This document shows positions 12,139 through 14,651 of a stretch of DNA of 64,000 bases, one piece after another (position 1 is the stretch's first letter; each line of letters starts with the position of its first letter). The notes beneath the pieces were generated by a model. The model did no database searches and was not told the DNA's origin. It was given only the letters and a program-made list of their open reading frames with translations. Both the position numbers and the translations under genes were made by a program. The DNA is from Blastococcus xanthinilyticus. GTDB lineage: Bacteria; Actinomycetota; Actinomycetes; Mycobacteriales; Geodermatophilaceae. The stretch is taken from contig NZ_VNHW01000009.1 of NCBI RefSeq assembly GCF_008124835.1, positions 62,001 through 126,000 of the forward strand. The letters run 5' to 3'.

Positions 12139-12200
12139 CCCACGGTCGCTGACCGAAGGTCCCGCCCGGGCCGACCGGTGGCCGCTGCGCAGCGCACGGG

Positions 12201-13466
12201 TCACCGCCGCTGCGGCCGTGCCCGGACCCGTTCCCGCTCCGGGGGCTGCGGACCTCCCCCCGATGACCACGCCTCAGACGTCGCCTCAGACGTCGCCTCA
12301 GACGTCGCCTCAGACGTCGCCGGCGCGGCGGGAAGCGGCAGCGCGGCGGCCGCGGCGAGCAGCGCGGCCAGCACCAGCAGGGACGTCCGGAGCCCTGCGG
12401 CCGCCGCGAGCAGGCCGAGCGCCGGCAGCGCCACGAGCACCGCCAGGTTCTGGGCGAAGCCGAGCAGGGCCTGGAAGCGCGCGAGCATGCCCTCCGGTGT
12501 GGCCCGGACCAGCAGGGGCATCGCCGTCGTCGTCCACACGGCCGTGCCAACCCCGAGCAGGACGAGGGCGAGCGCGCCCAGGGCGGCCGACCGGGTGACG
12601 GCGAGCAGCGCGATCCCGAGGGCCCCGACGCCCGGCCCGACCGTGCGGGCCCGGGCGCCGACAGCGCCGTACCGCGCGACGAGGGCGGTGACGACGAACG
12701 TCCCCACCGTCCAGCACCCCACGACGGCACCCGCCGCCGGCGCCGACCAGCCCCGGTCCCGCCCGGCCAGGGGCACCGCCAGCGTCACCACCGGCAGGAC
12801 AGCGGCGCCGAGCAGGGTGACGGCGACCAGCAGTGGTGCCACGCCCGTCCGCCGGGCGGCCCGCAGCGCGCTGACCGTGCCCCGGAGCAGCGTCTCGGAG
12901 GAGCGCAGCACCTCCGCCCGTGGTGGTCGCACGCGCAGCAGGACGACGAGCACGAGGACGTACGTCAGGAGGTCCACCGCGGTCGTCAGCGGCAGTCCAC
13001 CCCAGCCCAGGAGGAGCCCGCCGAGCGCCGGGCCGCCGGTGCGGGCCGCCTGCAGCAGCAGGCTCACCGAGGCCAGCGCCCGGGCGAGCTCGGCATCGGT
13101 CGCGAACAGGCGCGGGAACGCGCCGTCGGCCGGACGGCGCAGCGCGGCAGCCGTGCCCGACGCGGCCGCGAGCACGCCCAGTCCCAGCAGCGACGGGCCG
13201 TGCAGGGCGTGCGCGAGGAACGCCAGCAGCACCAGGACCATCGCGGCGTCGCAGGCCATCATCGTGCGGCGGATGCCCCAGCGGTCCGCGACGGCTCCGC
13301 CCAGCAGGACGAGGACGCACAGCGGTACCGACTGCACGGTCAGCACCAGGCTCGCCGCCCCGGGGCTGTACGCCGCCGCGCTCCAGCCGACGGCGAAGTA
13401 CGTGATCGAGTCGCCGAGCGTCGAGGCGGCAGCGGCCAGGGACCACACCCGGAAGCCGCGCCTCAT
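12201..13466 (-). CDS. MFS transporter
   Basis: A 421-aa membrane protein with about 12 hydrophobic segments. Loop signatures include GDSITYFAVGWSAAAYSP in helix 1 and GGAVADRWGIRRTMMACD in loop 2-3, the typical MFS G-x-x-x-D-R motif. Probably a drug or metabolite effluxer of the EntS/MDR type; the substrate is unknown. The hydrophilic tail ends in SEAT repeats encoded by a 12-bp tandem repeat. Its ATG overlaps the stop of the upstream MerR gene (ATGA), so the pair is translationally coupled and the regulator probably governs the transporter. The pair interrupts the conserved tRNA-Ala/ppiA neighbourhood. Confidence 0.88.
   Translation of the reverse strand: MRRGFRVWSLAAAASTLGDSITYFAVGWSAAAYSPGAASLVLTVQSVPLCVLVLLGGAVADRWGIRRTMMACDAAMVLVLLAFLAHALHGPSLLGLGVLAAASGTAAALRRPADGAFPRLFATDAELARALASVSLLLQAARTGGPALGGLLLGWGGLPLTTAVDLLTYVLVLVVLLRVRPPRAEVLRSSETLLRGTVSALRAARRTGVAPLLVAVTLLGAAVLPVVTLAVPLAGRDRGWSAPAAGAVVGCWTVGTFVVTALVARYGAVGARARTVGPGVGALGIALLAVTRSAALGALALVLLGVGTAVWTTTAMPLLVRATPEGMLARFQALLGFAQNLAVLVALPALGLLAAAAGLRTSLLVLAALLAAAAALPLPAAPATSEATSEATSEATSEAWSSGGGPQPPERERVRARPQRR
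12272..12319 (+). repeat. 12-bp tandem repeat, four copies
   Basis: Four exact copies of CCTCAGACGTCG, in the 3' end of the MFS gene. Read on the coding strand they give the repeated SEAT tetrapeptide. The unit length is a multiple of three, so copy-number change would not break the frame. Confidence 0.9.
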
Positions 13467-14521
13467 GGCCGCTCGAGCGTCGGCATGACGAGCGCCTCGA
13501 AACCGGGCTGGTCCGGCGACGTGAGCACCGCCGGGCGGTCGGCGGCGGAGATGTCCACCTGCACCTTCCGGCCGACGCAGGACCCGAGTGCCCGGAGCAG
13601 CAGCGAGCTCCGGAACCCCACCTCGAGCCCGGCGCCGGCGACGACCGCGGGCACCTCCACGTCGCCCACCCGGAACCGCTCCCCGTACCGCAGGAGCACC
13701 ACCGCCCGGTGCGCCCGCGTCACGGCCCGCACGAGGGACTCCGCCGGGACGAGCACCGTCGAACCCGGCGGGTCCAGCGCGTCCAGGACGAGGCGGTACG
13801 ACGGGTAGGGGCGCGGGTCGCCGGCGATCTCCAGCGCGTCGGCTCCCGTGGCCACGGTGAGGCCCTCGCCGGCCCGGAGGACCAGGTCGACCTCGCGGGA
13901 CCGCTCGAGGCGGTCCACCAGGTCGTCGACCGTCGGGAGGCCCAGCACGACCCGCGCCTCGCCGTCCCCCTCCGCCCGTACGCCCAGGACGCGGCGCGCC
14001 AGCCAGTGCCGGTTCGTCGCCACGACGTCGAGCAGGCCGTCCCGGGCGTCCAGCAGCACGGCGGCCAGCGGCGAGGCGGCCGCCGTGTCCGCGGCGGTGC
14101 GTACCTGCTGCAGCGCGGCGGCGAGGACCGGTCCGCTCGCGCGCAGGCGCACGGCCGGCTGGGGCCGCTGTCGTTCGAGCCGGGTCAGCACCTCGCCCAG
14201 CGCCTCCCGGGTGCGCAGCGCCTCCTGCTCACGACCGGCGGCGAGCCCGGCCAGCACGTCGCGGGCCTGCTCCGCGTCGCCGTCGAGCACCAGGCGCATC
14301 TGCTCGATCGGGACGCCGACGCCGCGCATCATCGCGATCAGCCGACCCCGCTGCTCGAGGGCCGGGGTGTAGTAGCGGTACCCGGTCGACGCGTCGGTCC
14401 GGGCCGGCACCAGCAGCCCGCACTCGTCGTAGTGGCGCAGCGCGCTCGTCGGCAGCCCGACCGCCCGCGCGAAGCTCCCGATCGTCAGCAGATCGAGATC
14501 CAGATGCCCCTCCGCGTCCAC
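13463..14521 (-). CDS. MerR regulator fused to DnaN-like clamp domains
   Basis: A 352-aa protein. Residues ~12-80 are a MerR winged helix (LTIGSFARAVGLPTSALRHY, then GYRYYTP), followed by a dimerisation coiled coil to ~125. Instead of a usual ligand-binding domain, residues ~130-350 resemble DNA polymerase III beta clamp domains II and III. These include a segment like the DnaN 'VVLAATDRFRLAVREL' region (DVVATNRHWLARRVL), PYPSYRLVL where DnaN has EFPKFRQLL, and a C-terminus RPAVLTSPD...ALVMPTL like DnaN 'KPALLRP...LLMPVRL'. The clamp similarity is read by eye. GTG start, leaderless promoter (next entry). Likely autoregulatory; controls the coupled MFS gene. It could respond to DNA or a protein partner instead of a drug. 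Confidence 0.8.
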   Translation of the reverse strand: MDAEGHLDLDLLTIGSFARAVGLPTSALRHYDECGLLVPARTDASTGYRYYTPALEQRGRLIAMMRGVGVPIEQMRLVLDGDAEQARDVLAGLAAGREQEALRTREALGEVLTRLERQRPQPAVRLRASGPVLAAALQQVRTAADTAAASPLAAVLLDARDGLLDVVATNRHWLARRVLGVRAEGDGEARVVLGLPTVDDLVDRLERSREVDLVLRAGEGLTVATGADALEIAGDPRPYPSYRLVLDALDPPGSTVLVPAESLVRAVTRAHRAVVLLRYGERFRVGDVEVPAVVAGAGLEVGFRSSLLLRALGSCVGRKVQVDISAADRPAVLTSPDQPGFEALVMPTLERP

Positions 14522-14558
14522 GCGTGCAGCCTGATCCTTCAGGCCGCTGGAAGGTCAA
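14522..14558 (-). promoter_or_regulatory. MerR-type promoter/operator, leaderless
   Basis: On the reverse strand TTGACC (14553-14558) and CAGGCT (14528-14533) are separated by 19 bp, the over-long spacer typical of MerR-activated promoters. The dyad CCTTC-n9-GAAGG lies at 14536-14554. The -10 box ends 6 nt before the GTG of the MerR gene, so the transcript should be leaderless. Confidence 0.7.
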
Positions 14559-14651
14559 GCACACCCGGCTCCCTGCGCCGCTGCCCCACGGGAGCGCCGG
14601 CTCCCGCGGCCCCGCGCCCGCACCGCCGCGCGGGGTGGGAGAGTGGAGGCC

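Follow-up and report, generated by a model that had tools for sequence, protein, structure and literature searches.

A gene on the minus strand of a 64,000-nucleotide stretch of the Blastococcus xanthinilyticus genome (hereafter referred to as the window; G000:C9:62001-126000 of a 4.6-Mb genome) encodes a protein in which a MerR-type DNA-binding head is joined to domains II and III of the sliding clamp, DnaN. The existence of this merR-dnaN fusion (13463..14521; 352 amino acids, GTG start), proposed in a first-pass annotation of the sequence, was confirmed by profile comparisons. Analysis of 46 such fusions from actinomycetes, including a second copy in the same genome, indicates that the pocket of the clamp has been retained and that the interface closing the clamp ring has mostly been lost. 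We judge it slightly better than even that the protein is a sensor of a clamp-pocket ligand, activating its own gene and, here, the overlapping gene of a major facilitator superfamily (MFS) exporter.

The gene was delimited by open reading frame calling together with its matches to MerR and DnaN profiles. The winged-helix DNA-binding domain (residues 13-80; 14282..14485, minus strand, like all parts of the gene) matched the Pfam families PF13411 (MerR_1; 2.5e-12) and PF00376 (2.2e-9), both above the cut-off. The individual matches of the clamp part fell below it: DNA_pol3_beta_2 matched residues 132-216 (0.0038), DNA_pol3_beta_3 matched residues 291-348 (2.2e-4), and the DnaN model TIGR00663 aligned colinearly (residues 132-347 to model positions 133-364 of 367; 4.4e-5), under its curated cut-off. 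Domain II exceeded the Pfam cut-off (27) in all three relatives scanned (51.0, 51.2 and 43.7 bits). Profile-profile comparison of the fusion clamp parts (37 of 38 sequences used, the window protein among them) with 11 DnaN proteins gave a probability of 99.9 and an E-value of 2.2e-35 over residues 127-366 of E. coli beta, and a separate comparison of 12 clamp parts with 10 DnaN proteins gave 99.7% and 5.4e-27. The window protein alone matched the DnaN profile with a probability of 95.9% (5.1e-9). No other fold appeared when the family clamp profile was compared with the PDB: 55 distinct sequences matched (E up to 0.01), all 55 of them named beta clamps, the best (5ah2; 1.2e-34) being the Mycobacterium smegmatis clamp with a natural product. 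The profile-profile match and the exclusively clamp-like PDB matches rule out chance resemblance.

The clamp-like order of motifs and the clamp-like C-terminus, on which the first-pass annotation had relied, can now be placed on E. coli residues 170-178 (VATNRHWLA in the window protein, VATDGHRLA in E. coli), 241-248 (YPSYRLVL and FPDYRRVL) and 360-364 (LVMPT and VVMPM). With approximate boundaries, the domain II-like part extends over residues about 124-250 (13772..14152) and the domain III-like part, in which the first helix and the following strands are shortened, over residues about 251-350 (13472..13771). Domain I is missing: everything up to residue 124 or so belongs to the MerR part and the linker, and the best alignment begins at E. 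coli residue 127. A second, weaker profile alignment to domain I (E. coli 3-144; 3.6e-12) overlaps the domain II match, because the clamp domains are repeats of one another; PF00712 (domain I), barely above cut-off in one relative, likewise overlaps the domain II match. The TipAS domain, PF07739, was not among the Pfam matches of the window protein (E up to 1). A helix at residues about 83-117 (14171..14275), seen with low confidence in a single-sequence model, is the probable coiled coil for dimerisation, and lies at the place expected for MerR proteins.

A tree of 39 fusions comprised a clade of 22 (hereafter referred to as the larger clade) and a set of 16 (hereafter referred to as the second set), with the window protein standing by itself at the end of a long branch (1.19). 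Residues of the pocket and of the dimer interface, taken as they are defined for E. coli beta in PMC11139829, were counted over 38 of these fusions (all but L100) in a single alignment with E. coli numbering, related sequences being treated as independent. Identity to the DnaN encoded in the genome of the window was 62% at the 18 pocket positions, 22% elsewhere and 7% at the seven interface positions; the corresponding values for identity to E. coli beta were 48% (pocket), 17% (rest) and 2% (interface). When 18 positions were drawn at random 20,000 times, no draw reached the identity of the pocket. Because DnaN itself is also best conserved in the pocket, a fairer control was restricted to the 28 positions invariant in 11 DnaN proteins: the proportion kept was 0.85 at the eight pocket positions versus 0.43 at the 20 others (40/20,000). 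Within these alignments, the clamp pocket is thus retained above background across the fusion family. DnaN-type residues occupied 224/252 subsite I cells and 146/168 subsite II cells in the larger clade (21 rows), and 158/192 and 66/128 cells, respectively, in the second set (16 rows). The window protein keeps L155, T172, R174, H175, L177, P242, V247, L360, M362 and P363, but carries S152, W176, L246, R320, L323, D344, T364 and L365.

The same alignment bears on the suggestion, made in the first-pass annotation, that the regulator might encircle DNA. At interface position 272 a DnaN-type residue (one seen in the 11 DnaN proteins) was found in none of the 38 fusions, and at 273 in two; at 300, 301, 303 and 304 it was found in three, five, two and none, respectively, and acidic positions 300-304 are gapped in 21 to 30 of the 38. 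The window protein has R, gap, gap, gap, gap, D and V at 272, 273, 298, 300, 301, 303 and 304. By this residue count, the domain III dimer interface is mostly lost in the fusions, and a DNA-encircling ring is unlikely, because domain I is absent as well. Homology to a ring-forming protein, together with the retention of position 298 in part of the family, would speak for such a sensor or for a mixed ring with the host DnaN, but the hydrophobic core of the interface and most of the acidic patch are lost or deleted, and a MerR dimer would presumably bring four clamp domains rather than the six of a ring. We regard this rival as the most improbable of those considered, and the interface losses over 38 fusions led us to reject it; the encirclement claim is not supported.

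Retention of the pocket could also have a structural cause. According to a second rival, the clamp fold has been reused as a scaffold, with domains II and III dimerising or binding an unrelated ligand elsewhere, and the conservation of the pocket is a by-product. MerR effector domains are often borrowed folds, and the window protein has other residues in place of R176, N320, Y323 and R365, as this explanation would allow; however, across the family, the pocket is kept more than other, equally DnaN-invariant positions, and we consider the scaffold explanation quite unlikely. The clamp-partner-binding sensor imagined in the first-pass annotation accordingly gains a selectively retained pocket, and its sensing function stands as a proposal.

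The promoters of the fusion genes point to autoregulation. Of the 46 fusion genes, 45, including that of the window, begin with a TTGACY-N19-nAnnnT pattern whose spacer contains a dyad, and both the A and the T of the second element are present in all 45 sites; the sole miss, L186, has the spacer dyad and lacks the first element. Among 486 other genes of the same loci, the first element was found once. A spacer of 19-20 bp enclosing a palindrome is the MerR promoter type, as described in PMC9909328. By eye, the upstream block common to each clade adjoins the start codon (the close pair L086/L119 aligns throughout). The predicted promoter/operator in the window (14528..14558, minus strand) consists of TTGACC (14558-14553), a 19-bp spacer with the dyad and CAGGCT (14533-14528), the second element ending 6 nt before the GTG codon (14521), in a leaderless-like arrangement. 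When the window was scanned for a pattern of first element plus dyad, two mismatches being allowed, no site but this one was returned, against an expectation of 0.08. The whole genome, scanned with one mismatch allowed, contains four sites: the two fusion promoters and two others. Across 20 further genomes with a fusion, the pattern matched exactly at 10 sites, eight of them at the fusion promoter (reversed control, 0); the fusion promoters of the remaining 12 genomes match the looser form only. One of the two exact sites away from fusions precedes a MerR-like gene and the other is not clearly before any gene. On these exact and one-mismatch searches, each fusion seems to control chiefly itself and the genes co-transcribed with it, because the sites lie mostly at the fusion genes themselves. 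The site is not wholly fusion-specific, because a MerR-like gene in G055 (L202:1225, minus strand; clamp part not tested) has a very similar one.

In the window, the gene co-transcribed with the fusion would be that of the MFS exporter (12201..13466, minus strand; Pfam MFS_1, 92.5 bits against a cut-off of 33.4, 3.2e-26; NCBIfam TIGR00900, 4e-25, under its cut-off). The two genes are probably co-transcribed and translationally coupled, because the ATG of the exporter gene overlaps the stop codon of the fusion (ATGA, four bases). The coupling to an exporter postulated in the first-pass annotation is therefore upheld by this overlap and by the MerR-type promoter just before the start codon of the pair.

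We propose that the protein is a one-component MerR-type activator, the sensor of which would be a piece of clamp incapable of forming a ring, with domains II and III and no domain I. The fusion itself, the pocket of the family, the lost interface, the promoter and the gene overlap are read from the sequences; binding of a ligand in the pocket, activation of the protein's own promoter and export of the ligand are what we infer from them. A MerR dimer would occupy its own promoter; a pocket-binding molecule, either a clamp-targeting natural product like griselimycin or mycoplanecin or some other hydrophobic compound resembling a peptide, would bind the clamp domain; the MerR part would then kink the promoter, and the fusion and exporter would be made. 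The clamp domain so produced may also soak up the compound, shielding the real DnaN. Griselimycin and mycoplanecin bind the clamp pocket, according to PMC10817943. That the ligand is a dedicated clamp-targeting antibiotic is, in our estimation, possible and rather doubtful. The griselimycin-type ligand named in the first-pass annotation remains a guess: it is the larger clade that keeps the pocket, Arg365 included, most fully (N320 in 19/21 rows, R365 in 18/21), and the window protein has other residues at positions 176, 320, 323 and 365. The ligand of the window copy probably differs from that of its relatives, because much of pocket subsite II has been lost.

Several observations weigh against this sensor reading. 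The window protein retains DnaN-type residues at 9/12 positions of subsite I and only 3/8 of subsite II. The pocket could be retained for reasons of folding, the counts ignore relatedness between sequences, and interface position 298 keeps its DnaN-type residue in 20/38 fusions. The single-sequence AlphaFold model of the window protein was uninformative (mean predicted local distance difference test score 38; the helix at residues 83-117 is its low-confidence feature), and the confident model had the DnaN alignment as input. The promoter pattern also arises by chance: at least one site was found in 7/100 shuffles of the window with up to two mismatches, the reversed control of the genome scan gave one site with up to one mismatch, and two of the four sites of the genome itself fall inside called genes. 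Control of an exporter is not general to the fusions, because an MFS-like gene follows 3' on the same strand in only 3/46 loci (the window, L095 and L100); the survey of MerR-clamp architectures and linked transporters suggested in the first-pass annotation thus yields a wider family, largely without the linked MFS gene. In 19/46 loci the next downstream gene lies on the opposite strand, and therefore nothing is co-transcribed with the fusion there. In 12/46 loci the follower is a protein of 158-217 amino acids with weak matches to tetratricopeptide repeats (TPR).

The count of MFS neighbours was based on three MFS queries, not all neighbours having been scanned with Pfam, and may miss other transporters. 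Two of the three MFS-linked fusions, L095 and L100, belong to the larger clade, and the window gene stands apart from it; in L100, the MFS gene comes after the second piece of a fusion gene that is itself split by a run of N. The TPR-like follower is mainly a second-set feature, occurring in 11 of its 16 rows (L098, L102, L104-L110, L112 and L120), and was also found in the later-added L180, and in L099 a TPR-like stretch shares, by eye, one reading frame with the fusion. The TPR assignment is weak (of three proteins scanned with Pfam, two were under the cut-off and one had no match); the small protein is perhaps a partner of the fusion. Other neighbours lie upstream. A FUSC-like gene directly precedes the fusion in four of the seven same-genus loci compared (L114, slightly under the Pfam cut-off, L121, L122 and L124), and an MFS gene does so in L117, L182 and L183; the fusion's own promoter sits between these upstream genes and the fusion. 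A dnaB-type gene is the immediate upstream neighbour in L102 and L110 and the third gene upstream in L112, and a MatE-type exporter gene lies on its far side (assigned with Pfam in L102 only); these three fusions span two families.

The dnaB-type neighbours are relevant to a third rival, in which the protein senses the state of replication: its pocket would bind the QLxLF-type motif of a replisome or repair protein, reporting free or excess partners. The retained pocket is the partner pocket, some second-set fusions lie near a dnaB-type gene (L102, L110 and L112), and the larger clade retains subsite II, the seat of the glutamine of the motif. However, much of this subsite is gone from both the window protein and the second set, and the promoter site, as searched, marks the fusion gene itself rather than replication genes. 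A QLxLF-type motif was found in the next downstream gene, the only one searched, in just three of the 46 loci (L091, L094 and L100); in L100 the gene concerned is the other piece of the fusion, and no TPR or MFS gene carries the motif. We consider a replication-state sensor unlikely.

In a further rival, the protein is above all a dominant modulator of the replisome, its clamp part competing with DnaN for partners and its MerR part serving only to set its own dose. For many members no regulatory link other than autoregulation can be seen, and an internal start may yield free clamp part in one clade. Nevertheless, this activity requires strong partner binding, which is doubtful given the altered pocket of the window protein, and the paralogue described below is patchy (12/23 same-genus genomes); we find it very improbable.

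The candidate internal start is an in-frame ATG (15 genes) or GTG (4 genes) at the MerR/clamp boundary (fusion residues about 107-123), preceded by GGAG 6 or 9 bases upstream; 19 of the 22 larger-clade genes have it. Multiplying the codon frequencies for such a start gives 10^-4.2 over the 19 genes, and about 10^-2 if one gene is taken per lineage. In the same 22 genes, 31/507 other in-frame ATG or GTG codons have GGAG 4-10 nt upstream, several of them near the gene's own start. A boundary start with GGAG is absent at that place from the second set (16), and inspection of the window gene by eye around the domain boundary revealed no in-frame ATG or GTG preceded by GGAG at a distance of 4-10 nt. 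These features make a modest case, hinting that the larger clade makes a clamp-only second product resembling TipAS. TipAS, the short form, occurs beside TipAL, as PMC7762955 reports, and TipA is described there as an autoregulated MerR drug sensor and sponge.

This comparison leads to a bolder reading of the family, which we regard as somewhat unlikely: actinomycete MerR switches would use a decoy of an antibiotic's own target. The clamp fragment to which griselimycin-like compounds bind would have been taken out of the ring, joined to a MerR head and placed under autoregulation, and the larger clade would also translate the clamp part alone from the internal start. A larger-clade gene would then be sensor, switch and sponge at once, and the window copy would have swapped the sponge for an exporter.

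Among known systems, the TipA class (TipAL/TipAS of Streptomyces, SkgA) shares with the fusions a MerR head and, as predicted here, a C-terminal drug-binding domain and autoregulation, and with one fusion clade a candidate internal start that would yield the C-terminal part alone; it differs in having the TipAS domain PF07739 in place of the sliding-clamp fragment, and the window copy has no internal start at the boundary. In BmrR-type systems, a MerR multidrug regulator with a ligand-binding domain is coupled to an MFS exporter. The window pair resembles them in the juxtaposition of a MerR regulator and an MFS exporter gene, and such regulators are phmmer matches of its MerR part; the sensor fold is another one, and the regulator and exporter genes of the window overlap by four bases. 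GriR and MypR are second DnaN proteins, named as self-resistance genes of the griselimycin and mycoplanecin clusters, according to PMC10817943. They share with the fusions the use of clamp homologues outside replication, there in dealing with clamp-binding antibiotics; they are DnaN proteins, whereas the fusion lacks domain I and has a MerR head. No griselimycin- or mycoplanecin-type cluster was noticed, by eye, among the genes at 6-22 kb of the window. The beta clamp itself shares with the fusions its fold, pocket subsite I and motif order, but has domain I and the dimer interface mostly lost in the fusions, and no MerR head. Second, divergent full-length DnaN genes were observed at G047:C1:5685407-5686510, G039:C1:2160646-2161740 and G049:C202:17897-18985, and are possibly of the GriR/MypR self-resistance kind. 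Separately, 43 viral contigs (L128-L170) encode DnaN homologues, the best segment of which is 23-54% identical to actinomycete DnaN.

Full-length fusions were found both in a search of 60 relatives and in a sample of the class, in which at least 30 of 394 genomes had a match of at least 212 bits (31 matches, two of them partial, in G076 and G265; up to five candidates were scored per genome, making this count a lower bound). In a sample of the phylum, at least six of 198 genomes had matches (E up to 1e-45; up to 10 candidates scored), all six within the class. One candidate, L113 (G358; 172 bits, model positions 1-174), contained no fusion in the gene calls and was left out. Five plasmid records from Streptomyces and Embleya gave matches to the whole query with 42-44% identity, labelled, where annotated, only as MerR family regulators. 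The paralogue in the genome of the window (G000:C5:168708-169691; L114:5988-7004) shares 32% identity with the window protein and resembles it in promoter type, but its pocket is fuller; this more conserved paralogue is present in 12 of 23 same-genus genomes, including this one. The window protein is nearest by path to L107, L102, L104, L110 and L112, all in the second set, and its highest identity within the tree set is 38% (to L112). Among 112 genomes of the same bacterial family, a search with E up to 1e-14 gave no closer orthologue (best identity 33%), hence the long branch, and the place of the window gene in the tree is unsure. A contig search with the window protein as single query returned one locus, a MerR protein matching residues 11-140 only. 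When viral contigs were searched with the alignment of the fusions, 20 pattern matches appeared, of which none was confirmed; a phage-borne fusion is thus unsupported by this search, both patterns of which lay within the MerR part. An anti-phage system is likewise unsupported, PADLOC matching the MerR head only (mad1, 1e-7) and nothing in the MFS protein or the two TPR-like proteins scanned. We found no paper describing the MerR-DnaN architecture in a search mostly outside subscription journals; it may well be present in Pfam/InterPro architecture lists.

At the locus itself, the tRNA-Ile and tRNA-Ala genes are followed by the minus-strand MFS and fusion genes; we take the flanking protein genes to be gyrB, gyrA and a DUF3566-like gene before the tRNAs, and a peptidyl-prolyl isomerase-like gene beyond the fusion. 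The interval from tRNA-Ala to the isomerase gene (12141-14642) varies within the genus. Six genomes of the same genus were compared, and in all of them the region ahead of the isomerase gene contained neither a fusion nor a gene like the MFS gene of the window: the gap from tRNA-Ala to the isomerase gene had no called gene in L196 and L198, other genes lay there in L197 and L200, and other genes preceded the isomerase gene in L195 and L199, the tRNAs falling outside the stretch compared. Because of this absence, the fusion-MFS pair was probably acquired by insertion at a variable site.

Antibiotics such as the griselimycins and mycoplanecins make the sliding clamp a live target, and a sensor made from the drug's own target would be unusual. 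If the proposal is correct, soil actinomycetes would seem to meet clamp-binding compounds often enough to keep dedicated sensors for them, the fusions would provide a ready-made reporter for the discovery of new clamp inhibitors, and the family would be an example of a replication protein fragment turned signalling domain. Even with no ligand in hand, dozens of genomes in which the ring was lost and the pocket kept amount to a natural experiment on what the pocket does by itself.

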